Below are positions 8,383-33,639 of a DNA stretch of 64,000 bases, in pieces. Both the position numbers and the translations under genes were made by a program. This DNA is from Dysidea avara (taxonomy: Eukaryota > Porifera > Demospongiae > Dictyoceratida > Dysideidae). Numbering within the stretch: the first letter of the stretch is position 1; every line of letters begins with the position of its first letter. The stretch is taken from assembly GCF_963678975.1 (NCBI RefSeq), contig NC_089281.1, positions 22,249,375 to 22,313,374 of the forward strand, written 5' to 3'. The notes below the pieces were generated by a model, which saw only the letters and a list, made by a program, of their open reading frames with translations, made no database searches and was not told the origin of the DNA.

Positions 8383-10372
8383 ATGCTTTGCTTTGCTTTG
8401 TGCATAGTTGCTATTACTTCTACTCAAGTCTGGGTAAACAAGATTCTGCCTGTCTGTGCAATAGTGAAATTTATTTATGTTGGTTTAATATTAGGGAGCA
8501 CCTAGTCAAGAGCTGAGTACTAATTCAACAGCAAGTACCATAGATAGAGAAGCATTTCAGCAAAAGTATTCACTTGGTATGTAAGTTACTGTTGGTATAA
8601 ATAAGTAAAATCATGCATCTCTTCAGATGATGAAGATGTGATCAGATATTTGACAGAGATTGAAAATGCAAACAAATCTGGTGCTGGTGTGACATAAGTT
8701 GGTGATTCATTTGTGCCAATTGGCTTCAAAAACTGTGAAGATGGTCCTGTGCCATCAATACATCAACAGCATGTCAGCATGCTCCACTGGCCTCCCTTTC
8801 ATAAATATACTTGTAAAGGATTATCCTGCAATGATCCATGGTGTCTGGCAGTTAAAACAGCAACAATATGTGCATGGGCTCTACATTACACCATTGACTA
8901 TTATGAAGATGGTGAGCCATACGCCAAGTTGCATGGAATTTGGCAGGTATGCTATGAGACACATCTTCAATGTGATTGCAGGAAATGTGAACACATCACA
9001 AGTTCCTCTGAATGTGTTCAAACTGAACCATGTCCAAATGGTGTTGTCCCAAATACAGGCTTTTGTTATTGGAGACAGCCATCTGTCATAAGTAGCGATC
9101 CATCTGATGTGATAGCTGCTGCTAATGGCAATGGACTAACAGGAGTAACAGGAGCTTGCAATTGCTGCCACCCAAAATCCTGTATCGAGCCACTGGAGTT
9201 TAATCCTGATACCTGTCAATGTGCATGCAAGCAGCTGTATTGTAAAATTTCACAAGTATTTAATGAAGCTACTTGCATGTGTGAATGTGACAACATCCAG
9301 CTTTGTGACAGTCTACACATTTGGAATCCCGATACATGTGAATGTGATTGCAAGTCAACATGCCTGCCACCCAAAACAGCACAAGATCTGGTCACATGCA
9401 AATGTGAATGTCCACCAATTGTTTGCACTGATCCTCCTCGTACAGTGCTAAATGATAATACATGTGAGTGTGAATGCCCACCAACACACTGTACAGATCC
9501 TTTAATATTAAATCCAACTACTTGTGAGTGTGAATGTCCTGACTGCCCCCCTGGTAGTACCCTAGACAGTGATACATGTGACTGTATTGGTGTCTGTAAC
9601 CAGCAGCAGTACCATGGCTCTGATTATTGTGAAATGGTACACTGTATAGAAGACCCATCCAGAATGTGTGCCCTGACTGCTGGTGCAATATGTGAATGTC
9701 CTCCAGGTGAAAGCTCTAGATCTCGCAGAGAAATAACAGATCCTGGTGAATGTAACAACACTGCATGCCCAGACAACAACTCATTAAGATGCAAGTAAGT
9801 AGTATAAACGACTTATTATTATACCATAAGATTCTGTTAGGTTTTATCATTATCATAACCCATCTACTGGACAAGAAGGGTGTCAGTGTGATGATATCGA
9901 TACTGCTACCAATACTGATGAAGATTGCTGCATTGAAAAACCATCTGCCCCATTAGGAGTGGACTGTAGTATCTATAATGCCCATGGATCTGATGACTGC
10001 AATAGTGTCTCAAATAGGGAGGCTTGTGAGTGGAAGTGCGATTGCTCTGAAATTGATGACCACGAAGCATGCATCAGAAGCACTTGTAAAGATTTCCCCA
10101 CTGTTAGTTGTGAATATAGTCAAGTAACTGGCTGCTCTTGTCCGAGATGTTGTAGAGATCACCCAAACAAATCTGCTGTCTTTGATTGTTCTACACTTGA
10201 CTCATTTGGCTCAGAAAGATGCAATCAAGTGTTAGGAGGGAATACCTGTCAGTGGACATGTCCTTGCAATGAGATAAACAGCCAAGATGCTTGTGACATG
10301 AGTACATGCATTGATGACCCAAACAGAAGGTGTCAATTTGATACTGCTGTAGGTGCATGCTTCTGCACATAA
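8383..10372 (+). pseudogene. Secreted CXCXC-repeat protein, copy A (in-frame stop)
   Basis: Four exons are seen: 8383-8433, 8495-8576, 8627-9794 and 9841-10372. All introns are GT-AG (61, 50 and 46 nt) and their phases (0,1,2) match copies B and C. The deduced 610-residue product has a hydrophobic signal peptide (first 17 codons), an N-terminal Cys domain ending in a CDCRKC motif, about seven CXCXC repeats of the form TCECEC (about residues 215-360), and two Cys-rich C-terminal modules. A single substitution makes codon 8695-8697 TAA where B and C read CAA and CGA (Gln, Arg). The following ~1.6 kb stays open with all splice sites intact. Initiation at the downstream ATG (8713) would lose the signal peptide. 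It may be a very young pseudogene, a null allele, a readthrough gene or an assembly error. The VEGF-C/D-like reading is explained under copy C. Confidence 0.75.
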
Positions 10373-11180
10373 ATCATTATTGTAAGCACCGAAACTGACT
10401 AAGCATATATATAATATTGCACACAAGCATTTTTATTCATGCCAGACTACTGTTTCACACTCGAAATAGTTTATATACACAACGATACACATATATTATT
10501 GATTGTGTATGGCATTAGGCCACTCCAAATAAATTCTCTGTTTCCCGTCCACCGCCCGCATCTGGTTACTGCCAGCTCTAAATATTCCATTATTCCGTAT
10601 TCTTCCATTATTTTCCGGTTATTCTTGCATACTGATAGGCTCAATAAAAGCTATCTTGAAACAGTGTCAGCTCACGTGTCAGTAGTGCTATCAAGTCAGT
10701 ACAAACTCCATGTTTGTGTTATTTTTGCAACTTACAAAGGAAGGAACAAACTTAAGCATGCTATTATGCAGCCTTTTTGGCAGTTCCAGGCAAATAATGG
10801 CTTGAAAAGCTAACCAATCTTATAATGAAATAATGGAAATGGACCACCCGCATACAAATATGCTTGAGTCCAGGATGGGAAACAGAGAATTTATTTGGAG
10901 TGGCCTTATATGAGCCATGGAAAATAGAAAGGGACCTTAGGGTGAGAAGTGGGAATTTATTATATCCCTAAAATATCTGAATAAGTGTAAAATTTTCACT
11001 GTTACAAAATACGTCATTACTCATGTTCTGTCCATTATATTCAAAAAAAATTTTCAGTATATTGCTAATGCATCAATGTATTTTTTTTAAATTACAGGAG
11101 TGGATAGTTACATATTTTAAATAATTGTGGCATTCTAATTAATGCACACTGCTTAGATGCTACATCCAATTTAAATAGTG
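10373..11180. other. Downstream flank of copy A with a Harbinger-type MITE
   Basis: No gene is visible. The main content is the MITE at 10518-10905. The rest is AT-rich and unremarkable. Confidence 0.6.
10518..10905. mobile_element. PIF/Harbinger-type MITE, 388 bp
   Basis: Terminal inverted repeats of about 30 bp begin with ggccactccaaataaatt and end with its complement. The element is flanked on both sides by TTA (10515-10517 and 10906-10908), the 3-bp duplication typical of PIF/Harbinger. It has no coding capacity. A related left end (ggccattccaa) occurs near 44.12 kb. Confidence 0.75.
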
Positions 11181-11192
11181 CTGTTCATAGCT

Positions 11193-11290
11193 AGGGCTGC
11201 ACCGATTCCACTTTTTACCGATACTTCAAATACCAAGTACTCAGCTGGGAAGTATCTGCCAGTACAAGTACCGATACCAAGTATCTTAAA
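11193..11290. mobile_element. hAT end fragment
   Basis: The sequence starts with tagggctgcaccgattcc, a terminal repeat form widespread in animal hAT elements. No matching right end was found nearby, so this looks truncated. Confidence 0.5.
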
Positions 11291-13105
11291 GTAGCTACTT
11301 CTTATTGGATGACACTCAGAACCATTGACTTGCTACCATAAATTAATGTCTTCACATTGCAAGCAAAATGAAATGGGATGCAAAGGAAGACAAAGGTATC
11401 TGTGGTGTACATATACTGCAGTATGCCAAAAGACACCTGTTAGGCTGGAGCAATGTCTAACTGAAACAATCAAGTGCATAATATTAGCAGTTATTGCAAT
11501 ACATTAGTCTGACAACATGAGTCAGTCAGTCCAGTAGAAAGACCAGAAACCAGCCTCACAATCCACCTTCATGGTGCCTTGCTAGTATAAGATTTCTTGG
11601 CACCATCAAGCCCAAAAGTGCCTTCAGTGACCCAAAACACATCAATTTTGTCATGGAAAAGTGTAAACTTTAATTGTCCATAATATATAGTACTACTGGA
11701 TTGTTTGATATATATATGTAAGTCACATGCAACTGTTCTGTTACATCATTGAATATCATTTGTTTGTCACACCTGTAGTGACAGAAGTTCTCTGCACATT
11801 TATACCATAATAGTACCATATAAGGTCTCCTAGTAATATATATATATATTTCACAGCTTGGCTGTTTTTGTGTGGATATATATATAAGCTATATTTTTCC
11901 TTAACTTCACCAGTTGTACCATTCCATTGTATTCTATTGTTACTCCAATGGCACACTAAATTCAGTACCTGGACAGCTGACTTAACTATCACCTACAACA
12001 TTTTAGGTTCAGTTGTCTTATATACTAAGTGTGAAGAAGGAAGAAGCTACATATCTAACTATGTAGCTATGTATAACACTGCTTGAAGGTTCTTAGTTTA
12101 CTAATTTTTAAGCTGCTTTGCTGTAGTTGTACCCAGTTATACTGATAGTAAAATGTCAGTAACTTTAAGTATATGGAACATAATTGTTTTACTAAGTTTT
12201 AAACTCTCAGTAAAACATCAGTGAATGTGGGTTTACTGAAAAACTACTAAAATAGCAAACAATTAATTGTTCCACATACTGGGGATATACCACTCTAATA
12301 AACTAAGAAACTTCAAGCAGTGTGCACACACATGCAACAAATATTCAGGAGTAAAATCTATCACCAAGTTTTACTGAATTATCAGGAATTGGCATTTCAA
12401 GTGAAATTCCAACAAAGAAAATCAACAAAATTAATGTGAATAAATGCAGTCTTTAGTGTCAGTTGTTAAGGACATGCATGCATAATTTTTCAAAATGTAC
12501 TGGTTACTGATGCATTCATACAAGATGCTCTAATTACTGTGTGGATGCTGTTGGGTGCAATTTCATGGCTTGTGGTCATATAGCCCATCCAGGAAAACAC
12601 ACCACATGCAAGTCACATGCAGTGATGATAACACTGTTTATTAAGCTACTACTTCTATTATGAAATTATGTGTCAGTCTAGACACAGAATTTCTATTAGT
12701 GACAACCAATTATCAGGATTTAGCTCCCTTACTGTAGTTCAGATACTATATAGTAGCTCTTGTGACTGTCATAATGTACTTTTCATCATCATCATTAGCT
12801 AGCTACACTGTATATTTTTTTGTAGTACAAATATCTGCACCATGATTCTTCTCAGTTCCACAGTGCCATATATTGCCACTTACACTGTCTAACCACCTAT
12901 TTATATTTTTCCAGTGTTGATATATGTACATTTCACAATTTTAACACAAATTAGAAACAAAATTTACACAAATAATACAACCAATTAATGTTACAGCATA
13001 GTCATTGGCAATCATTCATCATTATGATTATCCATTTGGTTTCACATGGGGTACTTTGAGATAATAAGTCACTCTCTAGAGTTCCTATGGATACATATGC
13101 ATTAA
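11291..13105. other. Intergenic repeats, inverted partner of the 2.2-3.0 kb block
   Basis: No gene is visible. About 11.30-11.66 kb holds rearranged pieces of the repeat also seen at 3.4-3.8 and 55.25-55.64 kb. About 11.88-12.68 kb resembles the reverse complement of 2.24-2.96 kb. Simple (TA)n tracts occur at about 11.84 kb. Confidence 0.5.
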
Positions 13106-13107
13106 AT

Positions 13108-13340
13108 TGACAAGGAGAAAATTTCCTGACCACCTGGCAGACTCCTGTAAACGTTTGAGCATTAATTGGTTGGCTGCAGGTTCAAGGCTGCCCAGGTCCA
13201 GTCACAGATTTCTTTTTCTCCATTCTCCACCTTTTCCAAACACACTTTCTGTAACAACTTTACATGGGATGTAGGACCAGGTGTCCTACAGGTCCTACAG
13301 ACCTTCAGCACTTGTGCTGTATAGCCTTAATAAATGAATG
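13108..13340 (+). repeat. tRNA-derived SINE (family 1), copy 2
   Basis: It aligns over its length with 3070-3300. It has the same gaccacctggcagactcctg start region, a diverged B box (ggttcaaggctgc), the same 3' motif and an aataaatga tail. A short internal duplication (about ggtcctaca) distinguishes this copy. Confidence 0.75.
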
Positions 13341-16300
13341 CTTATCAATGTTTTTTGAGATCATAAACCAGTTTAGCCATATTTAGCAGTATGAACAAAT
13401 GACACCATAATGACACCAATGGTTCAGGTTTTCAATTTTCAGTGGTAGTTGGCAAATTGTATTTGAAGGCTTTAACATGTGACTTCCCTTAGTTTTTCTT
13501 TCTTTTTTTTCCTACTCTTTCTTCAAATTATTTTGCTCTATTCTTGTACAACTACATAGCATTCTGCACTTGGTTGAAACTGTTGATCTTGTTGCTCTAG
13601 TATTTGTAGCTTCGTTTCATGTTGGTGATGAAAATTGTACTTTATTCAGCATTAGGTCTTTCTATACTTAGCTACAGACTATAAGTTTATCAAAGAATTG
13701 GTAAGGGGGACACAACAAGAAATGCACTTGGTACAAGAAACAGGAGTGAGGATTTTCAACTTCATAAGCTAAATAGAATAATTAAATACAATTCTGAAAG
13801 TAGTGACAGCTTTATAGATCACTTGATTGTTCTATTAAAGTATCTGAGATACACCAATGCTATTGACATTACCAAAGAAAAAAGTTGAATCTTTACTACA
13901 ATAAGTTTTTCTCAGCTGCTAAAATAGATTGTAAAACTGGCTTGTGACAGTGTTAGTAGTATAATGGCATATCAGCATCAATGACACATTTAAACATGAG
14001 CACTGAAGCTGCCAAACACCCTGATTCCCAAGGCCATTCCTTAGGCTTGGATTATCACAAATATCAATAAAGCTGAGGGATCCCCACAGCCATCACAGCA
14101 GAAAGACAGCAATGCACAGGATGTCAATGCAACAATAGACAACCCAATTTGAAAATCTAGAAGGGTCACATTAGAGAGTAGGATTGACAACCAGTGTAAA
14201 AGGCTCATCCATTTATAGCCCAGTATTAGCCCACTTATGATTTTTACATTGATTGACATTTATGTGCTAGTCAAAAGACCAAAAATTACTACATGCATGG
14301 TGAATTACAACTTTTTTGCTATGGTTTAAAGATCCTCACTATCATGTATGAACTGAATGATGTAAACGTGCTTGTAACTCAATAAGTATAATTTTATCAG
14401 CTATACACCTATACATTTAAAACTGATGCCTGAAGCCAGGATTATCATGATGCAACAAATTAAAATATTGTTTTGAGTCAGTTACTATATACCACCAACA
14501 ATCCTTAAGTTTAAAATTATTCACATACCACAGCTACAAAAAAAAGCTATTTGGCTAAACTATTCTAGTGAGGATCAAGTAAGAACAGATACTTACTATT
14601 TATGAAATTTAACTTTCCCACAGACTAAACCTCCTGTGAACAGTTACTGTTACTGAATATTATTTTGATTACATTTTCCTGACAGTAAATTATGAATGAT
14701 CAAGTTATATACATAACATTTAAGGGTATGTACATGATGTATATACTACATGCTCTGAAACCCTATATTACTATCATGGTTAACACTCCACAGTAACAGC
14801 AGGTGAATTGACTACAGTGGCATTTCCTTAAGTGGAAAGGTATTTTTGGGGGAATGCTTTTCTGTGGCAGGATGACACCCAAGCATTGGTTTGTTGCCAT
14901 TGTTATCACGACAGATCATTTGAGCTAGCTATGAGATATAAAAAGATTAGCTTGCAAGGTATATAATTAAAGCGTAATTTGATGTGGTTTGCGAAACTGC
15001 CCATTAGGCTTCTCCAGGCAGACGGAGCCCTCATACACCATTCTTTTCTTCCAATTCCAATCACAATTACATGTGCAGATGTTGACACATGATTTGCTTA
15101 TTTATCGCTTCAACACACATAGCCGAATGGACTATTCTTGTTTTTTATCCTATCATGCCCTTGTGTAAATAAAGGGATAGTTCTCAGCATATGGTCAAGC
15201 AAGTTTAATTAATTTAGCTTATTAAATAGCTATGCAGCAGGTGTCATGCATTTTATGGAAAAGGGTAACTTGGGGAAGGTAGTCAATGTATACATGTATG
15301 GGATTATATTATATGAAGTATACATCCTTGTGTACATATGTGTTGTAATGTATGCGTATTTTTTGTCTTGGCATAACTAATAACATGAGTACATGAGTAG
15401 CTAATGATATGTAAAGTCTTTGTTTTAATATAGAATGTTGTTGCAGTTTACATTTAGCATTATAGTAGCTATACCATTCTTCATGGACCATCCTCACATG
15501 TTGTGAATTGCATCCTTTGAAACTATTTCTATATACAGTTAGTTACATATGTATAAGAACTCAGCTCAGTCAAATAGACTTTCAGTAGTTATTGTTATAG
15601 CTACAGGAGTCTCAGGAACCTTAATTAATGGTAGCTGAGACACTTGCAGGGCTGCACTAAAAGACATGTGGATGTACCACCAATCCAAATATTGCAAAGC
15701 TTTAGCATCATGATATTATGAACTACTTCCCGTGAAATGTCAGAATAATGCAATGAAAAATTCTGCCCAATTTAGTTATATTATATTATTGTCACATCAT
15801 TTTAAACTACTGTTTACAACTTCTAAAATGCTATATAGCATTTAGTTGGCATTGTTAGAAAAATGGTAGACAGGAAGCTGCATGATTTTGTTAATCGGTG
15901 GTAAGCCGCAAGTTTTTATTGTCATCTCAAGCATCTTAACTGCCTCTAACCCATACCAGTAAAAGGCTCCCTTTTGTATACTACAATACCAATATAGCTA
16001 GCAGAGGTTGATTTTATGTCAGTGTGTGTCTCTCAGTTGAGTTGAGTTTAAGTCTATTATAGAGGCTTTTGAATTTAGCTACCCATTAACTCAGCACATT
16101 CAGCCTACTGTGCTAGTTTTAATGCTTTTCATTTCCTTTATGACAGTTAACACTGTGCCAAAACTACAATTAGTTATTATGGAAATAAATCTCATGAATG
16201 ATATGAAGAATTGCTCTATTATGTGGTACACATATAACTTAAACCATGATTTTCCTTACTTTGGCCCCTTTTCTGTTACACCTTTTCAGCTATAAGTCAC

Positions 16301-17290
16301 TAAGTCTAAGTCCCTGCAATTAGGTTAGGTAATCCTAAGGTTGCAGCACATGTTGCTGTCAGACCTTCAGTGCTGGTCACTGTAAAGCGCTAATAACAAT
16401 AACAATAACTGAACTTTAGTAATCATCACAACAGTTGTACTCAGTTCTGACCATTTCCCTCCATTGGCATATGTACAATAGCTCAAATGGACAATTTTTT
16501 GGGACTTTATTTTTTGTAGAGGAGCTTCTACAAGATTCTGTCAGTTTTTCTCTGAAATTCTACCTATTGCGCTAGCAATTATTATATGCTGGATGCCTTT
16601 TGCCTTCCTGCTATGTACTAAAATTATGCAAGCATGTAGACTCAAGCCTATTGTGTGTCTGACTCTGAAACATGTAATTAGTTATGCGAAAATAATGAAG
16701 GGGAAGTATTAATTTACTAGTTTTCAATGTCTATAGTTGGACTGTATACAGTCATGGCATTTTAGCAATCTATTCAATCTTAAAAATTGCAGCCAATGAA
16801 TTTTGTGATGATATTATGAGCAATATAGTTCCCTTCCTGCTTATGACATAATTCCCCCATTTTTCCAAATTAAAGTTTATGTTACAGTTTTCGCACATTC
16901 CTTCTTTTGACTTCCTAAACCCTGCAACAATGAGTATGTGAAGTTGTGTATGAATCAATTGCAATTTTTGCTGTGCTTATAATTTTACATATGATATGGC
17001 TTTACGTTACTTGGGCTCAACTTTTATTTTATTTGTTTATTAAGGCTTTACACAGTTTACAGCATTAATTGTGCTGTAGGTCTGTAACTGAATATACAAA
17101 TCATGTTGTCTTTCATATCAACACCTTCTGAGGTTTAACTTCCATTTCCGAGGTTTAACTACTACCTTTTACTTTGATGTGGGATAGGAAGGTTACTTGT
17201 ATATAGAATATGCAATCAATGATAAATCTGTACAGTTATGTAAATGTATATAAACTGTTCCAAGTGTGGAACAGTGGTCATAAATACAAA
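13341..17290. other. Long intergenic stretch
   Basis: I see no supportable gene. Identified items are the SINE family 2 copy at about 16.29-16.41 kb, a fragment at about 17.03-17.09 kb resembling the 3' end of SINE family 1, and an (AT)n tract at about 17.31 kb. About 13.98-14.25 kb shares phrases with 38.77-38.99 kb (the gctgccaaacaccctga stretch), so it is a further dispersed repeat. Confidence 0.55.
16288..16412 (+). repeat. SINE-like repeat (family 2), copy 1
   Basis: It is nearly identical to 24.67-24.80 kb, with reverse-strand fragments at 23.81-23.88, 25.30-25.40 and 35.81-35.89 kb. Its 3' end reads agaccttcagtgctggtca and continues to a (aataac)n tail. That end resembles the 3' end of SINE family 1, so both may depend on the same LINE partner. 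Confidence 0.65.
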
Positions 17291-17372
17291 TGTTTTTGTG
17301 TGTTATTCATATATATATATATATATATTATGTCACATAATGCATCATTTATGGTTATGATTATGTCACAGT

Positions 17373-19357
17373 TTATTTGCAGAAGCAAGCACCTGCAGTG
17401 GTATCAAATTGACACTGTCTGTTTGGGTCATCAATGCATGTACTCATGTCGCAAGCATCTTTGTCACTTATCTCATTGCAAGGACATGTCCACTGACATG
17501 TATCCCCTCCTTTCACTCGATTGCATCTTTTTGAACCAAATGACTCAAGTGTAGAACAATCAAAGACAGCAGATTTGTTTGGATGATCTCTACAACATCT
17601 CGGACAAGAACAGCCAGTTTCTTGACCATATTCACACCTAACTGTGGGAAAATCTCTACAGGTACTTCTGATGCATACTTCACGGTCATCAATTTCAGAG
17701 CAATCACACCTCCACACACAAGCTGTTCCATTCAAGACGGCATTACACTCATCAGATCCATGGGCATTATAGACACTACAGTCCATTCCTAATGGGGCAG
17801 ATGGTTGTTCAGTACAGCAATCTTCATCAGTACTGGTAGCAGTATCATCACACTGACATCCTTCTTGTCCAGTAGATGGATTATGATAATGATAAAACCT
17901 AACAGCATCAAATTTAAGTACCATGACAATACTGTTAATGCTACTTACTGGCATCTTAATGAGTTATCCTCTGGGCATGTTGTACTATTGCATTTACTAG
18001 GAACTGTAATTTCCCTGCAAGAACTGCCTCCTGGAGGACATTCACATTTTTATCAGCATTCAGGGCACACATTCTGGATGAGTCTTCTTTACAGTGTACC
18101 ATTTCACAATAATCAGAGCCATGGTACTGCTGCTGGTTACAGACACCAATACAGTCACATGTATCACTGTCTAGGGTACTACCAGGGGGACACTCAGGAC
18201 ATTCACACTCACAAGTGGTTTGGTTTAGTATCAAAGGATCTGTACATTGTGTTGGTGGGCATTCACACTCACATGTATCATTATTCAGTACTGTATGAGG
18301 ATCAGTACAGAATATCAAAGGACACTTGCATTCGCATGTGACCAGATCCTGTACTGTTTGGGGTGGCAAACAAGTTGAATTGCATTCACATTCACATGTA
18401 TCTGGATTCCAAACATGTGGACTGTCACAATCCCAGATTTCCTTGCATTCACACATACAAGTTTCTTTATTAAATATTTGTGGATCTTCACATATCTGCT
18501 GCTGGCATTCACATCGGCAAGTATCAGAATTAAACTCCAGTGGCTCAATACAAGGTACTGAGTTACAGCAATCACAAACTCCTTTTAGTCCAATTCCTTT
18601 AGCAGCTACTACATTTGATGGATTGCTACTTGTGACTGATGGGTTTCTCCAATAGCAAAAGCCTATATTTGGTATGATGCCATTTGGACATGGCTTAGTT
18701 TGAACACACTCAGAAAATTTTGTAATGTGTTCACACTTCCTGCAATCACATTCAAGATGTGTCTCATAGCACACCTGCCAAGTTCCATGTAGCTTAGCAT
18801 ATGGCTGGCCACCTTTGCCATATTCAGTTGTACAATGTAGAGCCCATTGACAAATTGTTTTTGTTTTAATTGCCAGGCACCATGGGTCACTGAAAAATAA
18901 ACCTTTACAAGTATGCTTATACAAAGGAGGCCAATGGAGCATGTTGGGGTACTGTTGATGCATTGATGGCACAGGACCGTCTTCACATTTTTTGAACCCA
19001 ATTGGCACAAATGAATCACCAACTTGTGTCACACCAACACCAGATTTGTTTGCATTTTCAATCTCTGTCAAATATCTGATCACATCTTCATCATCTGTAA
19101 CATTCGAAGAATTGGTTACTTATTTGTAGCAATAATAACTTTCATACCAAGTGAATACTTTTGCTGAAATGCTCCTCTGCCTATGGTACCTGCTGCTGGG
19201 TTAGTGTTCTGTCTTTGATTGGGTGCTCCTTAAATTATATTAAACCAGCATAACTTCATATGTAACGCAGATCCACACTTACCCAAACTTGAGTAGAAGC
19301 AATAATTACCACACACAAAGCAAAGCAAAGTAATTTTATCCGAAACTGCATCTCCAT
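17373..19357 (-). CDS. Secreted CXCXC-repeat protein, copy B (two one-base lesions)
   Basis: Minus-strand exons are 19357-19283, 19229-19148 (in register), 19094-17949 and 17898-17373, with the same intron phases as copies A and C. I chose the first of two in-frame ATGs (ATG-GAG-ATG). Domain order matches the paralogues: signal peptide, N-terminal Cys domain, CXCXC repeats, two C-terminal Cys modules, about 609 residues. Two defects are visible. The exon 2 acceptor reads taaggagc where copy A has ttagggagc, so the only AG would shift the frame by one. Near 18048, exon 3 lacks one base in an A run, shifting the last ~36 codons. Both would be repaired by one extra base in a homopolymer, so assembly error is a serious alternative to pseudogenisation. 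A cysteine conserved in A and C (GLSC, GLFC) is replaced here (GLFF). Confidence 0.65.
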
Positions 19358-20059
19358 CTGATACTCACAGATGATGCTTGTATTGCATGTACTACAAATA
19401 AATTAAACATTATTTATACTGATTTTCATTGCACACAGATGGGTTTATATAAAGTACTAATATGTTTGCACTTTTAACTTAAGTGTCTATATGATGAACC
19501 ATATAAGGATGACACATGTATTAAGCATACAAAGCCATAAGAGCAGGGTGATGGCTTGATTAGTTCTCAATCCTTTGCCATGAATTAAAATGATGAAAAG
19601 ACCAAAACAAACTGGATTGAAACTATCTTTAACAACCAAGATGAAACCTAGTGTTGCAGGGATACTTCTGAAAAGCAATTAAGTTATTGACCCAACCCGG
19701 TGTTTACAGTTAGTGAAGTGTCTCTCTATTAGCAGGCTATAGAACAACATCAACCAGTAGAGTTAACACTGTGAGTGTCACTATCATAAACTAAACTACC
19801 AAACCCAACACAATCACAGTTGCTAGTTAGCTAAGTAAAGACAGCAAGTTTTTCACTATGAATTATGATGGTGTAAATTCTGCTCTTGGTGTGCATAACT
19901 GAAGCATCATTTGATAACGATATATTATGCAATGCAAAGTAGCATATATACTATAGTTGCCAATTGCCAATTACAATCCTATATAAAGAAAGGTTGAGGT
20001 GCTAAAAATTAACAGTGCACAGGCATGTCTTGATATAATGTAGTAACTATACAACTTTT

Positions 20060-20091
<32 letters not shown>

Positions 20092-21270: not shown

Positions 21271-21458
21271 AGTATAAAGAGATCTGGGGGCATACATGAC
21301 CATCTTAGAAATTAATTTTTATCGGCATAGTAAATTTAATGCTAAAACACTAATAGTAGCTACCATCTATAAGATCAACATATCAATCCATGTTGTAACG
21401 GTTCTCATTAAATTGTATTTTTACCAAGAAAGAGCAATATTTTTTTAAAGAATTGTTA

Positions 21459-22570: not shown

Positions 22571-22975
22571 AGGTGGGGATCCCCTAAATCTGCCCTTGAA
22601 ACAGAGGAGCTGGCCAAGAAAATGATGAAGACAGTGCAAAAACAGAAGAAACAGCCAAAGCATTATGGTACATGACTAGTTACTGGAAACAAATTACTAT
22701 CATCATCCATGCACATACATGCATAATTTACCTATGTACTACCATTGCAAACAGGCCTATGGTGTCACTGTACACAGTACCATAAGTCATACTAGTAATG
22801 CGGCAATGCAACATCATCTACAGGTTTCAGCCATAGTGGAACCACCTGCACCACTACCATATATGATTATGGCTATACTTCTAAATGCTGTGAATGCTTT
22901 GAAACACTAGAAGAAGATATTGCAAGAGCACTTGAGGAAAAATGGATGGATAAAGATGTCAGTTTAACTTATTGA
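22571..22975 (+). CDS. Unknown two-exon coding unit, copy 1 (partial gene)
   Basis: Exon a (22571-22667) follows a polypyrimidine tract and TAG and ends at a GT donor. Exon b (22824-22975) follows CTACAG and ends in TGA. Joined, they read as one frame of 82 codons. The product has a lysine-rich helix-like start (ELAKKMMKTVQKQKK), a Thr/Ser/Cys-rich middle with TSKCCECFETL, and an acidic/basic end (ALEEKWMDKD). The duplicate at 28.5-30.3 kb keeps the frame and splice sites apart from insertions, which supports real coding. I found no upstream exon with a convincing start. An internal ATG-ATG lies in exon a. I do not recognise the family. Confidence 0.5.
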
Positions 22976-24667
22976 TACAAACAAAAAACTTAGAGCCCAT
23001 ATTGTGCAACCTTTATTACATATAGGCGATTGTACAACTTGTGTGCTTGCACATGCTTTGAAGTCCTTGATGATATACTTGTTTTCAATTTTTCAAATGG
23101 GAAGTGTATCAGTATTGGGAAAATTTAGAGTCTAACAAAAACATGATAGTATACAGGATGCAAGCAAGAAACCTTATAACCAAGAAGCCATGCTACACAA
23201 AGTACAAGCCTCCCTTAGTATTATGTTGCTTTGCATTCCCTACACAAAAACACATTAACATCATCATGCATGCTTACTAGCTCAGTTTTTAAGTGGCAAA
23301 TTTTGTTCTTGGCCATGCTGTAATAAGGAGGGGAGTTTTAAGTTCAAGATGATCTAATAGAGCAGTCAACTATATTCTAATAGAGTAGTCAAGTATACTG
23401 CTGTAATGTAAATAAGAGTTTCATTGCTGAAAATGATGACCATACAATATAAACCATACAATATACATTATGGCTACATGCCATATAATGTGGCCATCAC
23501 GCTTCACCTGTGCTAAGTGTTCTTTATAGTAATTAGTTGACAACCTACAACAGAGCCATACAAGCACAGCCTCTCCCTAGATGCAACAATTAGGAAGACA
23601 GGTAAACTGTAGACAAAGTTTGCAAGATCCATATGTAATTATTGCTGCTCATTTGTGGCAATGAAATCTAAAATGTACATACAACCAAATGTAGAAAAGT
23701 TACGTGTGTGATAATCCTAAACTATAAGCAGAAATTTAGTGTACCATTTAGTTAATAGAAACATGTTCATTAATTACATGTATGCTGTTATGACCAATGA
23801 CTACTTTACAGTGTCCAGCACTGAAGGTCTGACAGCAACTTGTGCTGCAGCCTTTGAGTTACCTAACCTAGCAAGCAGGAAAGACTTTGACTTACTTGAC
23901 ACAGCTAACAAGGCAAAACTGAAAACGGCATTGTTTGTACATGCTAAGACTTACTTACATTTGCAGTTATACATCATACACTGTAGTTATACACTGTTAT
24001 CTGTTACTGGTATGAAAGTTATAAATAGGAAATGGTCATTTTTGGCCATGATATTGTAGATTATACACATAATTACAGGCTACATGTTGTCTCTTCTGGT
24101 TCACATCAGGGTATGGGCTATGGTCCACAGGACATGCGTATCTAAGATCGGTATGTGGTTAGATATGATACATGTCAACAATACAATGCATGTGCAATTC
24201 TTTCTACCCTGCACGCAACAGTAAGTTGCTCCAACTATATGCTATGTATATATAGCTCAATTTATAATTGTTATTGTAGCATAAGCATTTTAGCAACATG
24301 CAAGAATTGCTTCATGTTGAAATTGTACGTAGACTATGTATACTTGAGGCACCTTAACAACTTCAAGTTTTGTGCAGTTCAATCACCAGGCTCAGTATCC
24401 ATGATGATACCAACAATACACATGAAATCAGTTATATAATAATGCCAATCAAGTCATATTTACAGTCTATCTGTTTGCAAACAGTTTAAACTGGAAATAC
24501 AACCGAAATGAAATTATTATGCAATTGAAAAGTGAAATACAAAACAACGAACAGTACACATTTTTTATGTTACTTGATGTTCCTGCTTGATGATTAAGTA
24601 AAAACACCTAAAGTACCAATTAGAATAAAACTTTGCATATTATATGTAAGAACAACATGACAAAGCT

Positions 24668-24803
24668 TTTCAGCTATAAGCCACTAAGTCTAAGTCCTTG
24701 CAATTAGGTTAGGTAATCCTAAGGCTGCAGCACATGTTGCTGTCAGACCTTCAGTGCTGGTCACTGTAAAGTGCTAATAACAATAACAATAATAACAAAA
24801 GCC
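24668..24803 (+). repeat. SINE-like repeat (family 2), copy 2
   Basis: It is nearly identical to 16.29-16.41 kb, ending in an (aataac)n tail. It is absent from the duplicated block at 36.6-36.8 kb, so it inserted after the segmental duplication. Confidence 0.65.
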
Positions 24804-25299
24804 ACCAAGGAAATAAACAGGATGCTAGTTGTTCCATAAAATTTAGTGAAACAATTTATCATAGAGACCCAGCTTTTAAGATAAAGCATAACAAACAACA
24901 TTAAGACATCTATAGGGGAGTGGTCATGTAAACACAACTTTGTGATGTAAAATTTTGACATAAATTATCTTCACCTGTACGGATGATGGTAAAGGCACAT
25001 TCTTGAAGATATGTCAAAACCAAAATGTCATGTAAATAATAATTTGGTTTTTTTCACTTCACCTACAGTATAATATTATATAGTTAGATAGCTTCTTCAC
25101 ACCTTGTGATGTAAGTCAGATAATTGAGTTAACAGAACCCTAATATTGTAGATGAAGGGTATGTGTATGTCCTAATACTAACTAGCTATGTGGTGATGTT
25201 TGAGGAACAGAACACAATGAAATGCCCCAGCTGTATAAAGCAAACCATAAGGGTTATTTAACTGTAAAGGAGGGGGCTTATGAAAACCATGTATTATTT

Positions 25300-25400
25300 T
25301 TTATTATTATTATTATTAGCACTTTACAGTGACCAGCACTGAAGGTCTGACAGCAACATGTGCTGCAGCCTTAGGATTACCTAACCTAATTGCAAGGTTA
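25300..25400 (-). repeat. SINE-like repeat (family 2), reverse copy
   Basis: A (TTA)n tract at about 25.29-25.32 kb is followed by the reverse complement of the family 2 3' half (agcactttacagtgaccagc onward). It is also absent from the matching position near 37.09 kb, marking a second post-duplication insertion. Confidence 0.6.
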
Positions 25401-25692
25401 TATTCTCTAGCTTTGTCATAAATACTACCAAGGATACTATATGTGTGGCAAAGAAATTGCATGATGGTAAATGATGTATCAAAGTAATTGAATATTAAAA
25501 GTAAGAAAAAAATCACTAGCACGCTGTATAAAGATTTGTTTAGCAAGCTAAGGATCTTACAAGTGCCCAAAAGTATGTACTAAGTCACATATAGCTAGGT
25601 TTACAATATAATGGTATTGAAAAGAAATCTACTATTTGTCGCCATTAGTATGTAGATTATGATACAGATATTATAATTATTGTCTATTATTA

Positions 25693-25823
25693 TTACAAGA
25701 TTGAATCTTCTTGTAACTCCAACAGTTTATACTGATCATCATACCTGTGTCCAAGTGACCACAACTTCTCAAGTTCCAATATGTCTCGCTTGGCTTGCAA
25801 CATAAAATGTACTACAATATCTC
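25693..25823 (-). CDS. Duplicate MALSU1-type terminal exon
   Basis: A 131-nt exon with an AG acceptor (25825-25824) and an in-frame TAA. It encodes 42 residues beginning DIVVHFMLQAKRD, the C-terminal part of the RsfS/Iojap fold. It is a near copy of the exon at 37521-37388 and keeps the same splice phase. Here the split codon gives GD, the residue pair usual in the family, while the nearer copy reads GN. It could serve as an alternative distal last exon for the gene starting at 41115, or be a non-functional duplicate. No upstream exons of this gene were found close to it. Confidence 0.65.
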
Positions 25824-26454
25824 CTATATGGTAAAAACATTTCATTTTTATGATACACACATGTTTTTGTAACAAGTAAACAGGTAGGTATAAACAGTGG
25901 ACCTGGGACCCAACTTTTCGTTATATACTTCACAATGCTTATATATTCTATACTTGTACCAGATACCTTTGTAAGTCACACAGTTGCTAGTTTTGCATAG
26001 TCAAGCCTCCATCACAGTGCCTCACACATTGCCTAGGTACTAGATGCCTATATTATCTTCATAAGTACCTACTCTGAAATGGGTCTGGACTGATTAACAT
26101 AAGTCTTCCATTATTCACACCAGCAACTGGTGGTATTAATTACAAGTCTTCACCTTGATGCTCCACATGATGTACGAAGTTTGTTTGTTGAGGTGATGGG
26201 TTAACTTGCAGTGATTGCTTCACTGAAGCTATTTCTAAGGAACATTTGTTTGCTCAAAGTTGATGAACTACAGTAGCTACAGGCAACATATTAGTATACA
26301 TGTGCTCATCATACAGCACGAGTGGCCAAATGCAGTCAGCTACAGACCCTTTTTCAGAGGTGCCTATAATTTCTCATTCATGTGAGGCATTATGACTAAG
26401 TAATAATGGATTGGCCATGTAAGACTACAAGCAGTTTCAGTATGTAACTACATA

Positions 26455-27330
26455 CATGTACCTGGACAAAAGAGGGACAACCTTTTGAACCCACTGTGCT
26501 CTGGCTTAACCATAAATGCCGTACAGCAAATCCCTTCCAGTTTTATTCCTTTACATGACCACAGGTATTACACAAGACCAAATGGAGATATGTAATATAC
26601 ATACAAAGGTATGATATATGCTATTATGCTTATCATGCACACTTGTACATGACTATAAGCACACTTCATAGAATTCAGTTGAATATACAACTATAGCTGT
26701 ACCTCTAGGTGACTGTTCACATGCATATAGTGATATTTACAAATCATAGAATTTTCTTCCTTTGTAATGGCTTGCAATGGCAGCACACTTATTGAGAAGG
26801 ATTTTAGTTATGGTAAACAAATTGATTTTGTTATATATCTGTTCCAGCTGACTCAAAAGAGAAAACGCAGAAATGAATTGTTAATATTAATTTCTCGTTG
26901 TTTTTGCTTTCCAGCACCACTGTGTTTGGACAGCATTAGGTATAGCCTCTGGAGGATGCTAGCATTTGGTCAAATGGTTGAGCAGCAGTTTGGTAGGTGT
27001 ACAGGCGGTTCTACCTACCATTCCTTATATCATGTAAAATTAACTATTATAACTAGCTAGATGGCCACAGCTCACACTATAATTTGGATGCTGTTACAAT
27101 GGAGAGTGAATGATGTTATCATTCGGGTCCTCATACCCGCACACCACTCGTGAAATGCAGCTACTATATATAGATGCATCTATTTGGGCATCTGAAATAC
27201 ACTTGTAATTTACCAAAAGGTTTGTTATGACTGTATTTAATGGCACACTGGAAAAGTTATCAATAACTACAAATGTTTATTATAATTAGTCTTTTCTAAT
27301 GTAATTCTTCAATTGTATAACATGTTGCAT
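26455..27330 (-). repeat. Reverse copy of the 4.7-5.8 kb dispersed repeat
   Basis: Read on the minus strand this resembles 4735-5660, including the ccttgtacttaagtgtgc-type segment and the ccagcaccactgtg segment. It is interrupted at about 27332 by another transposon. Confidence 0.6.
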
Positions 27331-27331
27331 A

Positions 27332-27620
27332 GGCAGCGGAAGAGGGGTGCTGGAGCACCCCCAACTATTTTACTGGGGTTGCTGAGCACCCCCAATTCAA
27401 AGCTGTATTGCGCAATAGTCACCTGAACTTCCAGAAACTTGTCAATCACGATCGAAATACTCTAATAGAGAGGTCACCCTAATACAACAGTCAAGCATAT
27501 ATTAAAAAGTACTAGTATTTGATTAACAGCTAAAACCACCGAAAATGCCTCCAAATTCAATCTCCTGACACCTAATTTTTAAAATTTTCCTGGGGTGGCA
27601 TGCCCCCAGACCCCTCTAGA
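27332..27620. mobile_element. DNA-transposon fragment (gcagcggaag... gagcaccccc type)
   Basis: It begins ggcagcggaagaggggtgct and contains gagcacccccaa repeats and a cctggggtggcatgccccc stretch. Insertion is shown by the uninterrupted partner near 4.73 kb. It carries one copy of the aatactctaatagag motif (27455-27476). Superfamily is undetermined. Confidence 0.5.
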
Positions 27621-28766
27621 ATTTAGTATGTACTAATACAGTAACACTATAGTGACGGGATGAAGAGTAATGCTATAAAAGTTCCAGAGGACTAAGCAAT
27701 TTTTTTTTACAAATAAACATTCAAAATAGAGGGGGGCTAAGAAAAGAGGAAAAGCATTGATACATCAAGTATAGTGTGCAAATAACATTCAACATGTGGA
27801 GCATGCTCCATCTAAAGAGGTCCGGGGCATACATGACCATCATCACATTCTCTATAGCAGTAGCATAAAGCAAAGAGAACATTGTTTTATGTTTAAGTTC
27901 ACTTTCAAGGTGATCTTATGTTGTAGCCTCCAAATCTGAATCATAATTAGAAATTAATTTTTTAACAGCTTAGTAAATTTGATGCTAAAACACTAATAGT
28001 ACTATCTATAGGATCAACAATATCAATCCATGTTGTAATGGTTCTCAATAATTTGTATTTTTACCAAGAAAGAGCAATGCTTTTTTAAGAATTGCTATAT
28101 GTAGGGATTTCATTTGTACTGTGCTTATTCTATATAGAACATCTCCTTTGGAAGTTTGGAATTTGAAGGGTTGGTGTACATTTATATGTTGATAAAGAAC
28201 TCACGTAAGCCTACAGCCCCTCAAATGTAATATACGAGTGGAGAGTGGTCACATTTTGTTTGAAAGTTATTTACTTAAACAGGAAGATTAATTAGATATA
28301 AGCGTAGAGCTTGATCAAGTATAAAAACTCTGGTATAGCCCCAGATGCTGTAACTCTTTTAACTTTAAGGATGCTTCGGATTTCAGTAGTTTGGATGTTC
28401 TATTAGGGTAGATTAGAGTATTTTAATTTTATCAGCTTCAATGCCTCGAGCCCAAAATATAATTTTGGCCACTGACATCTCAGCTCTTTTCTCTCTGTCC
28501 TTTCTACCTTTTCATTGTCTATGCATATGCTTCTATTAGTTTCCTAGAGGTGGGGATCCCCTAAATCTGCCCTTGAAATAGAGGAGCTGGCCAAGAAAAT
28601 GATGAAGACAGTGCAAAAACAGAAGAAACAGCCAAAGCATTATGGTACATGACTAGTTACTTACTATCATCATCCATGCACATACATGCATAATTTACCT
28701 ATGTACTACCATTGCAAACAGGCCTATGGTGTCACTGTACACAGTACTATAAGTCATACTAGCAAT

Positions 28767-29792
28767 CAGCGTTGAAACCGGGTCGGGTCATCCGGGTCAT
28801 CCTGGTCACATTTTCTCCGGGTCATCCGGGTCTGACCTGGTTTACAATTTATCCGGGTCTGACCCGGATTGGATCACGTGAGAAACGAAATTGTTCGTTT
28901 GACGACGTGGAACTTATAAACGCTATCGCGTAGCTCTTTCGTGAGCCACGCCCACTTATCGCATTACCAACATATGCTTAGTCACGCCCATTTGTTAGTA
29001 AGTGCAGTATGTAGCACGAAACTGAGGGTGAGGGGTAGCTATTGTCAGTAGGTGAAGACCATTTTTTTTTATTATTATTATTATTTTTTTTTTTGGTCTT
29101 CAACCTACAGCTAGGCTGAAGTTGCAATATTTACTCAACACGATTCGAACGTTCAAAATGTAGACTCGTTCGCTCGCTCGAGACTAGCCGACGGGTCACA
29201 TCCAGGTCAATCCGGGTCACATCTAGTCTGGCGGCGCCCGCCCCTTCGCATAGAGTAAGGGTCTGGTATGCTTAGTATAGTGGAGTTGTACCGGATTACC
29301 AAAAACTGGTGCAACCAATCAGAACGCTCCACGTTTAATCAGCGAATTTTTGTGTATGTTACGTCAAAAGAATGAATCAAATTCCCTAACAGAACTGAAG
29401 AAACAAAACGAGTTAGCTAATAAAGAACAAAGAGAAGAAAGTGTTATATCGGGAAGAGCTTTTCGCCTTGTTTGATACACGAAAAACCCATGTTACGCTC
29501 TGATTTCCTAGGTAGGGAGACATGTGTATTTTATGAAAAGTAGACCAATCCACTTTCGCCTGTGTAAAGGCGAAGAAAGTTCAATATCTCTGCCACAGTT
29601 TTGGGTGAGGCACTTCCGTTAAGGCCATTTTCGTTACGTCATTACATTCAAATTAAATTCCTCCATAACAACTAGGTGATACTAAGCGTACCAGACCCTT
29701 ACTTTATGCGAAGGGGCCGGCGCCGCCAGACTAGGTCACATCCGGGTCAGTGGGTCATCCGGGTCAGCAGTAGTGACCCGGTTTCAACGTTG
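28767..29792. mobile_element. hAT-like non-autonomous element, 1,026 bp
   Basis: Ends are cagcgttgaaaccgggtc and its near-complement gacccggtttcaacgttg. The flanks carry the 8-bp duplication ctagcaat (28759-28766, 29793-29800), matching the hAT mode of insertion. The subterminal DNA is built of many ccgggtcatc / ccgggtctgacc repeats in both orientations. The matching site near 22795 in the duplicated block is empty. A degenerate relative lies at 54865-55000. It holds a nested element (29223-29734). Confidence 0.8.
29223..29734. mobile_element. Nested foldback element, 512 bp
   Basis: It lies inside the hAT-like element. The ends ctagtctggcggcgcc and ggcgccgccagactag extend to about 57-bp inverted repeats with a few mismatches. 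The flanking gtcacat (29216-29222 and 29735-29741) may be a 7-bp duplication, although the host repeats contain this word often. It contains no convincing open frame. Confidence 0.65.
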
Positions 29793-29859
29793 CTAGCAAT
29801 GCGACATCATCTACAGGCTTCAGCCATAGTGGAACCACCTGTGCCACTACCATATTATG

Positions 29860-30184
29860 CAGGGGCGGATCCAGAGTTTGGAAAGAGGGGGGGCACCTTG
29901 CTGAAAAACAGTTGAAGACAAAAAAAAAAAAAAAAAAAAGGTCACAACAATAATAGCTAGTGATCCTTTACCAAATATATCACGTCTGTTATGTAAAATA
30001 AAATCCTATTTATAGCTTCATAGGTAAGCTACACAGCCTACACTGCCTCATGAACATTGTGACTGCTTTATTAGAGTAACTGACTGCTCTATTAGAGTAT
30101 CTCGATCTTGTATGCAATTTCTTGAAGGGGGGGGGGGGGGGGGGGGGCATTTGCCCCAAATGCCCCATCCTGGATCCGCCATTG
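29860..30184. mobile_element. MITE with CAGGGGCGGATCCAG end, 325 bp
   Basis: The left end is caggggcggatccag and the right end ctggatccgccattg. The flanks are ttatg on both sides (29855-29859 and 30185-30189). It interrupts exon b of the unknown gene copy. Inside are a poly-A tract (about 29920-29939), a run of about 20 G (about 30127-30147), and two copies of the tattagagta motif (30061-30109). Confidence 0.8.
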
Positions 30185-30754
30185 TTATGCATATATGATT
30201 ACGACTATACTTCTAAATGCTGTGAATGCTTTGAAACACTTGGAGAAGATATTGCAAGAGCGCTTGAGGAAAAATGGATGCATAAAGACGTCAGTTTAAC
30301 TTATTGATACAAAAAAAAAGCTTAGAATCCATATCGTGCACCCTTTATTACGTAGGCGATTGTACAACTTGTGTGCTTGCACATGCTTTGAAGTCTTTGA
30401 TGACATACTTGTTTTCAAATTTTCAAATGGGGAGTGTACTGATATATCAACATTGGGAAAATTTAGAGTCTGACAAAAACATGACAGTATACAGGATGCA
30501 AGCAAGAAACCTTATAACCAAGAAGCCATGCTACACAAAGTACAAGCCTCCCTTAGTATTATGTTGCTTTGCATTCCTACACAAAAACACATTAACATCA
30601 TCATGCATGTTTACTAGTTCAGTTTAAGCAGCAAATTTTGTTCTTGGCAATGTTGTAATAAGGAGGGGAGTTTTAAGTTCAAGATAATCTAATAGAGCAG
30701 TCAACCTAATAGAGTAGTCAAGTGTGAATAAGAGTGTCATTGCTGACAATGATG

Positions 30755-31602
30755 TAGAGCCTTGAATTTTTAGGTGTTTTCATTGAAGAAGGGATATTTC
30801 TAGACCAGACATTGTAGCATAATGGATGTGGGTGATGTAAAGCTGAATATAATGCTAGTCTACAGTTTTTCGTCACAGACCTCTTGTTTTATACCATTCA
30901 CTTGGATGTTCAAGATACATACTTGATACACTTAAGATAATGTTTTACTGTTGCTTGACAAGCCATTCAGTGGATTCATGTCAGGTATGTACAGCTCCAC
31001 TAGCTAGAATGAGTTATACAGCTACAACCAATTCACTCTCACTTTCATTCATGAAATAATACCAACCCGTTGACTAATCATTAAAGTTTTAAGTCTCTCA
31101 GCAGCATATATAGCAATCTGTTGAGTTTAGGACCATTAAAATATTTACAGCCTCTCGGTAGCTGGGGGCTGTACACCCAGACCATTGCTGCTGGTGACTT
31201 AGCATTATGGAATATTCAAACCTTGTGATCCCATCTATCACAGCCCCAGAGTTGAGCTGTTCAGTTGTAAAATTTTCAATTTTTGTGTTGATTTGAAGAG
31301 ATTCACCTTCAGAAAATTGTGGCTGTCAAAATTTCTGGATATAGCTACCCTTGTGCATTTTAATTCACAATACCCCACACATCATTTCCAAATTTCATAT
31401 GGCAACTTACGTTGCAATACCATTGCACGCATAGCTTGCTAAAACAATCAACAGTTCAATGTAAATGTACATCATTATGTATCTGTTTAATCAACATATC
31501 AATAATATTTATTATGCTGTTTCAAATGTGACACAGTGGTTGTGATTACAAACAGGATGTTGCATATAAAAGATTATGCATTTATTGTGTGATGTTAACA
31601 GT
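30755..31602. other. Downstream flank of gene C
   Basis: No gene is visible. A polyadenylation signal for copy C (AATAAA, minus strand) is at 31586-31581, 17 nt past the stop codon. The rest is AT-rich. This is the left part of the 4.7 kb block that separates the two halves of the duplicated unit. Confidence 0.55.
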
Positions 31603-33547
31603 TTAGTTGCAGAAGCATGCATTTTCACGAGTATTGAATCGGCAACTTCTTCTATCTAGGCCATCAATACATGAACTCTGGATACAAGCCTCTCGGTTGC
31701 TTATCGCATTGCATGGGCATGACCACTGGCAGACATTAGGTCCTAATGCTGTATTACAACTTTTTTCACCAAAAGCATCAAATACAGAACAGTCAATACT
31801 GAAACTGGACACTGGACGATTTGGGTGATCAGAGCAGCATCTTGGACAAACACAGCCAGTTGCATTGCTGTATGTACACCTAGCTCCTGGAAAGTTTATA
31901 CAGCTGCTTCTGAGGCATATGTCAGGGTCATCAATATCAGAACAATCACATCTCCATACACAAGCACTCCCATTCAAGGCAAAATTGCAAGAATCAGCTC
32001 CACGGACGTCATGAATACTGCAGTCTGTTCCTTCTGGTGCGGATGGTTGTTCTTTGCAACATCCATCATTACACTGACATCCATCTCGTCCAGTAATTGG
32101 ATTAACATCATGATAAAACCTATATAAGTGTGACAAAGCATATATTATATGACTTCATAGAATTTATTCACCTGCACTGAAGTGAGTTGTTGTCTGGACA
32201 TGCTGTGTTATTACATCTACAAGGATCTGTTATTTCTTCACATGAGTTTGGGGAACATTCGCATCTTCCTTCAACAGTCAGGGTACACATTCTGGATGGG
32301 TCATCTTTACAGTGCACCATTTCACAATAATCAGAGCCATGAAACAGTGTACAGTTACCAATACAATTACACATATTGTCTGGTATGCTACCAAGAGGAC
32401 AATCGGGACATTCACATTGACAAGTGGTTGGATTTTGTAGTTTAGGGTCCGTACAATTTATTGATGGACATTCACATTCACAATTATCATAATTTAGTAC
32501 TGTATGAGGGGGGATATTACAAAGCATTTCTTCTGAACAGTTACATTCGCATGTCACTGGATCCTGTACTTTGGGTGGCAAGCATGTAGAGTTGCATTCA
32601 CACATACATGTATCAGGATTCCAAACAAGTGGTCTGGGACAATCCCGGATCTCTCTACAATCACACATACATGTCCTAGGGTTGAACACTTGTGGAGGTC
32701 TACATACTCGTGGTATGCATTCACATTGGCAAGTGGCACGATTAAACCTTCGTGGCTCAATACAAGATACTGGGTAACAACAATCACAACCCCTTCTTAG
32801 TGCAATTCTGTTTGCAACTACCACACCTGTACCTGGTTCAGCACTAATAATTGGTAGTCTAGATCTTCTCCAATAACAAAAGCCTCCATTTAGTAGATTG
32901 CCATTTGGACATGGCTTAGTTTGAATGCACTGAAAAATATTTCTAATGTGTTCACATTTCCTGCAATCACATTGAAAATGTGTCACATAGCATACTCGCC
33001 ACATCCCAAGAAACTTTACTATGCCATACTCAATGGTATAATGTATAGCCCATCGGCATATTGTTTTTCTTCTTAATGCCAAGCACCATGGATCTCTGCA
33101 GAACAAGCCTGTACAAGTACGCCCATACAAGGGAGGCCATGGGAGAACATTACGATATTGTTGATGTATTGCTAGTACAGGACCATCCTCACATCTTGAA
33201 AGGTTAAACCTGATTGGCACAAATGATTCGCCAACTCTTGTCACACCACCCCCAGTCTCATTTGCATTTTCAATTTCAGTCAAATATCTGATCACATCTG
33301 CATCAGCTATAAATATACAAAGCCTATATCACATATTTTACCAATAAATTTCCTACTTACCAAGTGAATATCTTTGCTTAAAAGCTTGTTTATCGATAAT
33401 CTCTGATGCAGGATTGGTATTCCGTCTTTGACTGGAAGCATCCTAATGTTAACCAAGCATGAAGGAACTCATTGCATTAATTTCACTTACCCGGACTTGA
33501 GTGAGAGTAAGAATCACTATGCATAAAGCAAAGTACAGTGTTTTCAT
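31603..33547 (-). CDS. Secreted CXCXC-repeat protein, copy C (intact; VEGF-C/D-like architecture)
   Basis: Exons are 33547-33491, 33442-33361, 33306-32172 and 32119-31603, all GT-AG with phases 0, 1 and 2. The product has 596 residues. Residues 1-19 form a signal peptide (MKTLYFALCIVILTLTQ). About 85-165 is a Cys-rich domain with RTCTGLFCRDPWC and, at its end, CDCRKC. The spacing recalls the PDGF/VEGF cystine knot (CxGxC core, then CxC) but not its exact motif. About 215-355 holds seven repeats of C-x(n)-TCxCxC form, as in the tails of VEGF-C/D and in Balbiani-ring 3 protein. The last 170 residues hold two modules with CNxxxxxxxCxWxCDC and CPRCC motifs, plus a partial third at the end of exon 3. 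A diffusible growth factor or a matrix protein are both possible. The growth-factor reading is my inference. Confidence 0.85.
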
Positions 33548-33621: not shown

Positions 33622-33629
33622 TATTTATA
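33622..33629 (-). promoter_or_regulatory. TATA box of gene copy C
   Basis: TATAAATA on the minus strand lies 75 bp upstream of the start codon, at the equivalent place in copies A and B. Confidence 0.6.
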
Positions 33630-33639
33630 TACATTTTCA

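Follow-up and report, generated by a model that had tools for sequence, protein, structure and literature searches.

Do sponges possess genes of the PDGF/VEGF family? The question is raised by three related genes, here called copies A, B and C, in a stretch of 64,000 nucleotides from Dysidea avara (NC_089281.1, positions 22,249,375 to 22,313,374). The whole stretch is referred to as the window; it belongs to contig C10, of 30.7 Mb, in a genome of 551 Mb. In each gene a cysteine-rich N-terminal domain is followed by CXCXC repeats of the kind found in Balbiani ring 3 protein (BR3P), and the finding that a sponge carries genes that by sequence are PDGF/VEGF-like, with a VEGF-C-like tail, stands. 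The genes probably encode secreted proteins of the PDGF/VEGF family with the layout of VEGF-C and VEGF-D, a family assignment to which a probability of about 0.8 is given. The features on which the argument turns are the following, with positions in the window.

8383..10372, forward strand: copy A, four exons (8383-8433, 8495-8576, 8627-9794, 9841-10372)
17373..19351, reverse strand: copy B, layout as in A and C, with one frameshift at the acceptor of exon 2 and a second close to where exon 3 ends
31603..33547, reverse strand: copy C, intact four-exon gene of 596 amino acids, from splicing and translation
33547-33491, 33442-33361, 33306-32172 and 32119-31603, reverse strand: exons of copy C in the splice model
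8734..8997, forward strand: predicted cystine-knot domain of copy A
18733..18999, reverse strand: predicted cystine-knot domain of copy B, one cysteine of the knot replaced by phenylalanine
32947..33196, reverse strand: predicted PDGF/VEGF-type cystine-knot domain of copy C
32408..32764, reverse strand: tail of copy C with six full CX10-12CXCXC (BR3P) units, coordinates derived manually from the splice model
31606..32119, reverse strand: exon 4 of copy C, a C-terminal cysteine module made of two units in tandem, each about 62 amino acids long, no Pfam match

Similarity of the N-terminal domain to PDGF and VEGF

The assignment is carried by profile A3, which combines copies A, B and C with three relatives that a search with copy C had found, namely gene E on C10 and two loci on contig C12. 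No PDGF model chose its rows, and it is therefore an independent test. Against PDB sequences A3 gave nine matches with an expectation value (E) of at most 10, eight of them PDGF/VEGF chains with PDGF-A as the best (2.6e-4) and the ninth an antibody chain (E 0.64), and the alignment spans an NxLxWPP stretch, the CxG motif and the final HxxCxC. With its non-cysteine columns permuted the same profile gave four matches (best E 0.072), and reversed it also gave four (best E 0.26), none of them to PDGF/VEGF in either control.

The genome holds at least 19 knot loci, and 16 of these were aligned (A9), leaving out copy D, which is near-identical to A, L046, which has an internal stop, and L049, which is near-identical to L048. 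Two members, L005 (contig C12) and gene F (C10, 18.03 Mb), had come from a scan of the genome with the Pfam PDGF model as matches below its cut-off (E 0.033 and 0.57). Owing to this origin they were dropped from profile A10, whose other C12 rows entered via L005 except for two also found with copy C. All 14 PDB matches of A10 are PDGF/VEGF chains (best 1.2e-4), as are 39 of the 40 matches of A1, in which L005 and gene F are included (best 2.2e-5), both profiles being less independent than A3.

The profile-profile comparison (hhalign) that the preliminary description had proposed, here with five printed PDGF/VEGF segments (A7) as the target, gave probabilities of 92.6% for A3 and 95.9% for A10, and of 0.1% for one shuffled A3. 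In column shuffles that preserve the cysteines, none of 150 reached the real score for A3, for A10 or for the window-only profile A4. Scored with a PDGF/VEGF profile, 13 of the 16 sponge domains exceed the best of 320 cysteine-preserving decoys (312 scored; best 8.3 bits), and the Pfam PDGF model matches 5/16 trimmed domains, the best at 3.3e-5 and 24.5 bits. The knot that had been offered as a possibility from the order of its motifs is in this way supported at the level of sequence, with a significant similarity to known PDGF/VEGF members and not to others, which for the window copies is reached only via their relatives.

The six knot cysteines occur in order (CxG...C, CxC) in 13 of the 16 aligned members, including A and C, with one of them missing in each of B, L047 and L051, and in L048 CxG is replaced by CxD. 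The motif reads CxGxxC instead of CxGCC in 12/16, the rest having CxGSC, CxDxxC or, in two members, a lost second cysteine, and an additional cysteine pair is found in 11/16. PDGF-A and PDGF-B are the best PDB matches of the profiles and are similar in the NFLxWPP...CxG and HLxCxC stretches, whereas the aligned PDGF chains have cysteines that the sponge domains lack.

A number of observations weigh against the assignment. Both VEGF inter-chain positions are without cysteine in all 16 aligned members, and the exact PDGF signature around CxGCC is not present in the sponge domains, as had been stated earlier of the PDGF/VEGF signature. No member reaches the cut-off of Pfam PF00341 (27 bits), copy C is unmatched by the Pfam PDGF model, and among ten longer, untrimmed C12 frames the model matches one (E 0.039), the long L005 frame being unmatched. 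In the genome scan the same model also matched one of 14 microbial controls, and four other Pfam families match one trimmed domain each (E 0.02-0.43). A phmmer search of PDB with the N-terminal part of copy C returned one unrelated match at 1.3 and no VEGF or PDGF. The hhalign probability of the window-only A4 against PDGF/VEGF is just 11%, which is still above its 150 shuffles, and copies B, A and C score 7.2, 6.4 and 0.7 bits, under the best decoy, C also under at least eight decoys. These three alone fall under the best decoy and are therefore the members furthest from PDGF/VEGF, and since single window copies are not recognised, their assignment depends on a chain of relatives. Structure prediction with AlphaFold, with the three window sequences only as input, had low confidence (predicted local distance difference test, pLDDT, 40.8 and 50.8), and among the 36 Foldseek matches of the better low-confidence model none had E <= 0.001. 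In the second model a pair of short strands and one long hairpin can be made out, which a knot factor would also have, but its pLDDT is too low for use.

Gene copies and the wider family

Copy C is the only copy intact within the window; its exons measure 57, 82, 1135 and 517 nt, in phases 0, 1 and 2, and its frame is open throughout. The preliminary description had three four-exon genes with common phases, and three related genes are indeed present, of which C and A have the same four exons. Copy A contains one in-frame TAA in exon 3, at about position 8696, copy B is broken by its two frameshifts, and the count was too low, a fourth copy, D, having been found by the genome search just beyond the window (C10:22239742-22240926, reverse strand). 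Every exon of D that was read is open, the exons being read separately and not as one spliced whole. The TATA boxes reported for A, B and C are present and recur in D, with the box (TATAAAT or TATATAA) starting 67-84 nt 5' of the ATG in all four.

8313..8319, forward strand: TATA box of copy A, TATAAAT
19412..19418, reverse strand: TATA box of copy B, TATAAAT
33625..33631, reverse strand: TATA box of copy C, TATATAA
778..11311: first of the two arms of an inverted duplication of 10.58 kb, with copy A; second arm at C10:22238228-22248792, with copy D

The arms of the inverted duplication are 98.97% identical, with the centre near the left end of the window, and the duplication carrying A and D is recent. 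Substitution between the copies is purifying, and the genes are not chance frames: the ratio of nonsynonymous to synonymous substitution (dN/dS) in exon 3 is 0.33-0.39 in five of the six copy pairs (329-338 codons), the sixth pair, A-D, having no synonymous changes, and in exon 4 it is 0.33 for A-B and 0.40 for A-C, the two pairs computed. Copy C is flanked by direct repeats (window 23453-26432 and 35444-38130; each about 1 kb, 82-85% identical), which are perhaps the remains of mobile elements.

All locus counts given here are lower bounds. The knot loci, at least 19, comprise 13 on C12 and genes A to F on C10. A search of the genome with exon 3 of copy C led to gene E (E 1.6e-20, C10:22228131-22229090) and also, by way of the cysteine domain, to two C12 loci (6.5e-5 and 3.1e-4). 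The search with L005 gave 21 matches at E <= 1, 13 of them the C12 loci (E 9e-63 to 1.6e-15), located at 14.93, 15.10-15.21 and 17.97 Mb, and one to gene E (6e-4), the remaining seven having E 0.03-0.8. Gene F in turn finds gene E (1.3e-8) and a C12 locus (0.005), and all knot groups are thereby linked. Compared with PDB, all three matches of L005 are VEGFs, with VEGF-B as the best (0.014), and the best three of the six matches of gene F are VEGF-C and VEGF-A (best 0.029), the remaining three being unrelated at E > 1.

C12, 14.93-15.21 and 17.97 Mb: array L034-L038 and L041-L053 of short genes with a signal-peptide-like exon, a knot and mostly one or two CXC units

Gene F has a complete frame of 143 amino acids in three exons (51, 34 and 347 nt). 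It shares phases 0 and 1 with the window genes, has a TATA box, stops right after the last CxC of the knot and has no tail. At each of the 13 C12 loci an AG that fits a phase-1 acceptor lies 5' of the knot exon, and 12 of the 13 have upstream a 48-nt frame for a hydrophobic peptide, with a GTAAG-like donor at its end, plus a TATA box, in a signal-exon scan that had no shuffled control and with gene models drawn up by script and inspection rather than from transcripts. A pattern of signal exon, short exon and knot exon would fit the whole family. The first two intron phases of human VEGFA are 0 and 1; a literature search did not document this parallel, which is not used as evidence. Among the C12 loci L046 has an internal stop and L047 is split across two frames.

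The tail, its neighbours and the possible role of the proteins

From the N to the C terminus the window genes consist of a hydrophobic exon 1, which by inspection may encode a signal peptide, a short exon 2, a long exon 3 with the cysteine-rich domain and the CXCXC units, and exon 4. Copies A, B and C each have six complete CX8-12CXCXC units and a seventh that stops at CXC, and the seven CXCXC repeats described previously should thus be corrected to six complete plus a half, the repeat tail itself being present in all three. In the two exon 3 frames scanned the Pfam CXCXC model scores above its cut-off of 15 bits (37 in A and 18.6 in C), and CXCXC is the sole family found in a Pfam scan of the window genes. 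A BR3P tail of CX10CXCXC type after the knot, which marks the VEGF-C/D-like subclass, is found in A, B and C. A Pfam CXCXC scan of the genome gave nothing at threshold, with no control matched; since the window itself contains the repeat, this result is uninformative.

Exon 4 has no match in Pfam, in agreement with the new C-terminal cysteine array that had been claimed, and its repeat is common to gene E (2e-10). Compared with the C-terminal cysteine exons of BR3P-like neighbouring genes it shows no convincing similarity, the best value, about 0.04, falling on a gene E-related fragment, and common ancestry with these exons is not claimed. Two short frames in L031 (1604-2017, reverse strand) resemble the C-terminal part of gene E and perhaps belong to a broken relative.

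The BR3P-like neighbours lie on the same contig.

C10, about 22.154-22.214 Mb: near-pure CXCXC frames L027-L030, BR3P-like, upstream of the window genes and sharing the strand of copies B, C and D and gene E

These frames have 32 CXCXC units in 723 amino acids, 31 in 655 and 8 in 216, and the longest, of 1841 amino acids, was counted as two pieces with 59 and 24 units. As tail-only frames occupy the same stretch of C10, knot-plus-tail and tail-only genes are near neighbours on one contig. BR3P-like proteins have been reported from sponges in the relevant part of a survey of the family (PMC10328876). The window genes share the CXCXC repeats with them and, unlike the BR3P-like frames, which have no knot, carry a knot before the CXCXC units and a different cysteine repeat after them; they are not proteins of CXCXC repeats only, as a silk or matrix protein of BR3P type would be.

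With VEGF-C, VEGF-D and the cnidarian VEGFs the sponge proteins have in common putative secretion and a predicted knot of PDGF/VEGF type, with CX10CXCXC (BR3P) repeats after it. They differ from these in the lack of both inter-chain cysteines (16/16), in CxGxxC, in the extra cysteine pair and in scores below the Pfam cut-off, and the window genes differ further in their six BR3P units and in a C-terminal cysteine repeat outside Pfam. According to passages of the same survey, a VEGF-C-like layout is likely ancestral, the VEGFs of cnidarians are similar to VEGF-C and often have lost one inter-chain cysteine or both, one or both are also lost in fly and worm members, and mammalian PDGFs are without BR3P motifs (PMC10328876).

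On the family assignment the protein comprises a predicted signal peptide, a short pro-region, the predicted knot, a BR3P ("silk homology") tail and the C-terminal cysteine repeat. The knot domain would fold as in VEGF and the chains would pair without the two inter-chain disulfides, the tail and the C-terminal repeat might tether the ligand to the matrix or to cell surfaces, and proteolysis may release a short form; that the knot may suffice by itself is suggested by the tailless gene F. The target of the ligand would be a receptor, most probably one of the receptor tyrosine kinases, that guides cells in the sponge. For this signalling role the evidence leans slightly in favour.

A rather unlikely alternative agrees with the family assignment and competes with the signalling role only: the domain could be homologous to PDGF/VEGF, with the long C10 proteins being non-signalling matrix or coat proteins of BR3P kind in which the knot serves for assembly. 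It is suggested by the near-pure CXCXC frames upstream on the same contig and strand, and by the tail and C-terminal repeat, which make up most of the protein, while the recent duplication with two broken copies would suit a non-essential structural family. Against it speak the six knot cysteines retained in A and C together with the dN/dS values of exon 3, the fact that VEGF-C signals with the same kind of tail, and gene F, in which the knot stands without a tail.

Quite improbable is an origin of the domain in another knot family, such as the GPH/bursicon/BMP-antagonist-like group of sponge cystine-knot hormones (CKH) or noggin, or an independent origin. CKH proteins are, in the relevant sections of PMC4079206, secreted cystine-knot proteins from sponges, as is predicted of the proteins discussed here. 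The Noggin model of Pfam matches one of the 16 members (E 0.43), and the Foldseek matches of the poor AlphaFold model include PRDC, Gremlin-1 and IL-17AF, all at E >= 7. The PDB contains GPH, gremlin, noggin, TGF-beta and NGF chains, PRDC and gremlin being seen in the Foldseek matches, yet no chain of any of these five groups appears at E <= 10 among the PDB matches of the profiles (9, 40 and 14), a comparison outside of which the sponge CKH sequences lie. Moreover, the similarity to PDGF/VEGF goes past the cysteines, with NxLxWPP before CxG, and cysteine-preserving shuffles fail to give it. That the window holds nothing except decaying, functionless copies, as the stop in A, the two frameshifts in B and the broken C12 relatives L046 and L047 might suggest, is very improbable indeed, considering the fully open copy C, the open exons read in D and the purifying substitution between copies.

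Age of the family and other features of the window

The favoured reading, PDGF/VEGF-family proteins of VEGF-C/D-like layout, bears on the age of the family. In the relevant passages of one survey all 11 poriferan BLAST hits for PDGF/VEGF were judged false positives, five of them being BR3P or BR3P-like (PMC10328876), and in those of a second the PDGF family is dated to the cnidarian-bilaterian ancestor (PMC4079206). A literature search, with preprints excluded and few subscription papers, gave no report of a sponge PDGF/VEGF ligand in the portions of the papers covered. It is reasonably probable that PDGF/VEGF ligands predate the sponge split, in a VEGF-C-like form and as a minimal knot, and that they radiated here to at least 19 loci, one group of which lies near BR3P-only genes. 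If this is true, the family is older than the two surveys conclude in these passages, the VEGF-C-like layout proposed as ancestral occurs in a sponge, and the BR3P-only genes near the knot-plus-tail group could show how the tail was gained.

A kinome study, in the part concerned, lets the FGFR/PDGFR/VEGFR group arise after sponge divergence (PMC8662651), and with the VEGFR and PDGFR kinases placed after sponges the ligand would, if the dating above is true, be older than its known receptors. A VEGF-R1 transcript is described for Halichondria panicea, in relevant passages from which a ligand is absent (PMC9798719). With the kinome dating set against this transcript, a ligand with an open receptor question would therefore be directly testable in animals without vessels, if the genes are what they seem.

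By Pfam the window further contains genes for DNAJC9, a C3Hc3H zinc-finger protein and an RsfS-like protein (45485-46285, 46391-47227 and 40615-41256, reverse strand), together with a GGACT-like gene that is split into widely separated pieces (48950-49252 and 59369-59674, forward strand). Elsewhere in the genome, nuclear copies of mitochondrial DNA point to a sponge as the source. L059 (C8:25954000-25957400) is a nuclear mitochondrial copy with cox1 followed by nad1, open when TGA is read as Trp, and at C5:7206799-7208111, in a nuclear mitochondrial copy identified by match only, an ATP synthase c match lies in an 80-aa frame about 310 bases 5' of a cox1 match. Mitochondrial atp9 and the order cox1-nad1 are sponge marks among animals.

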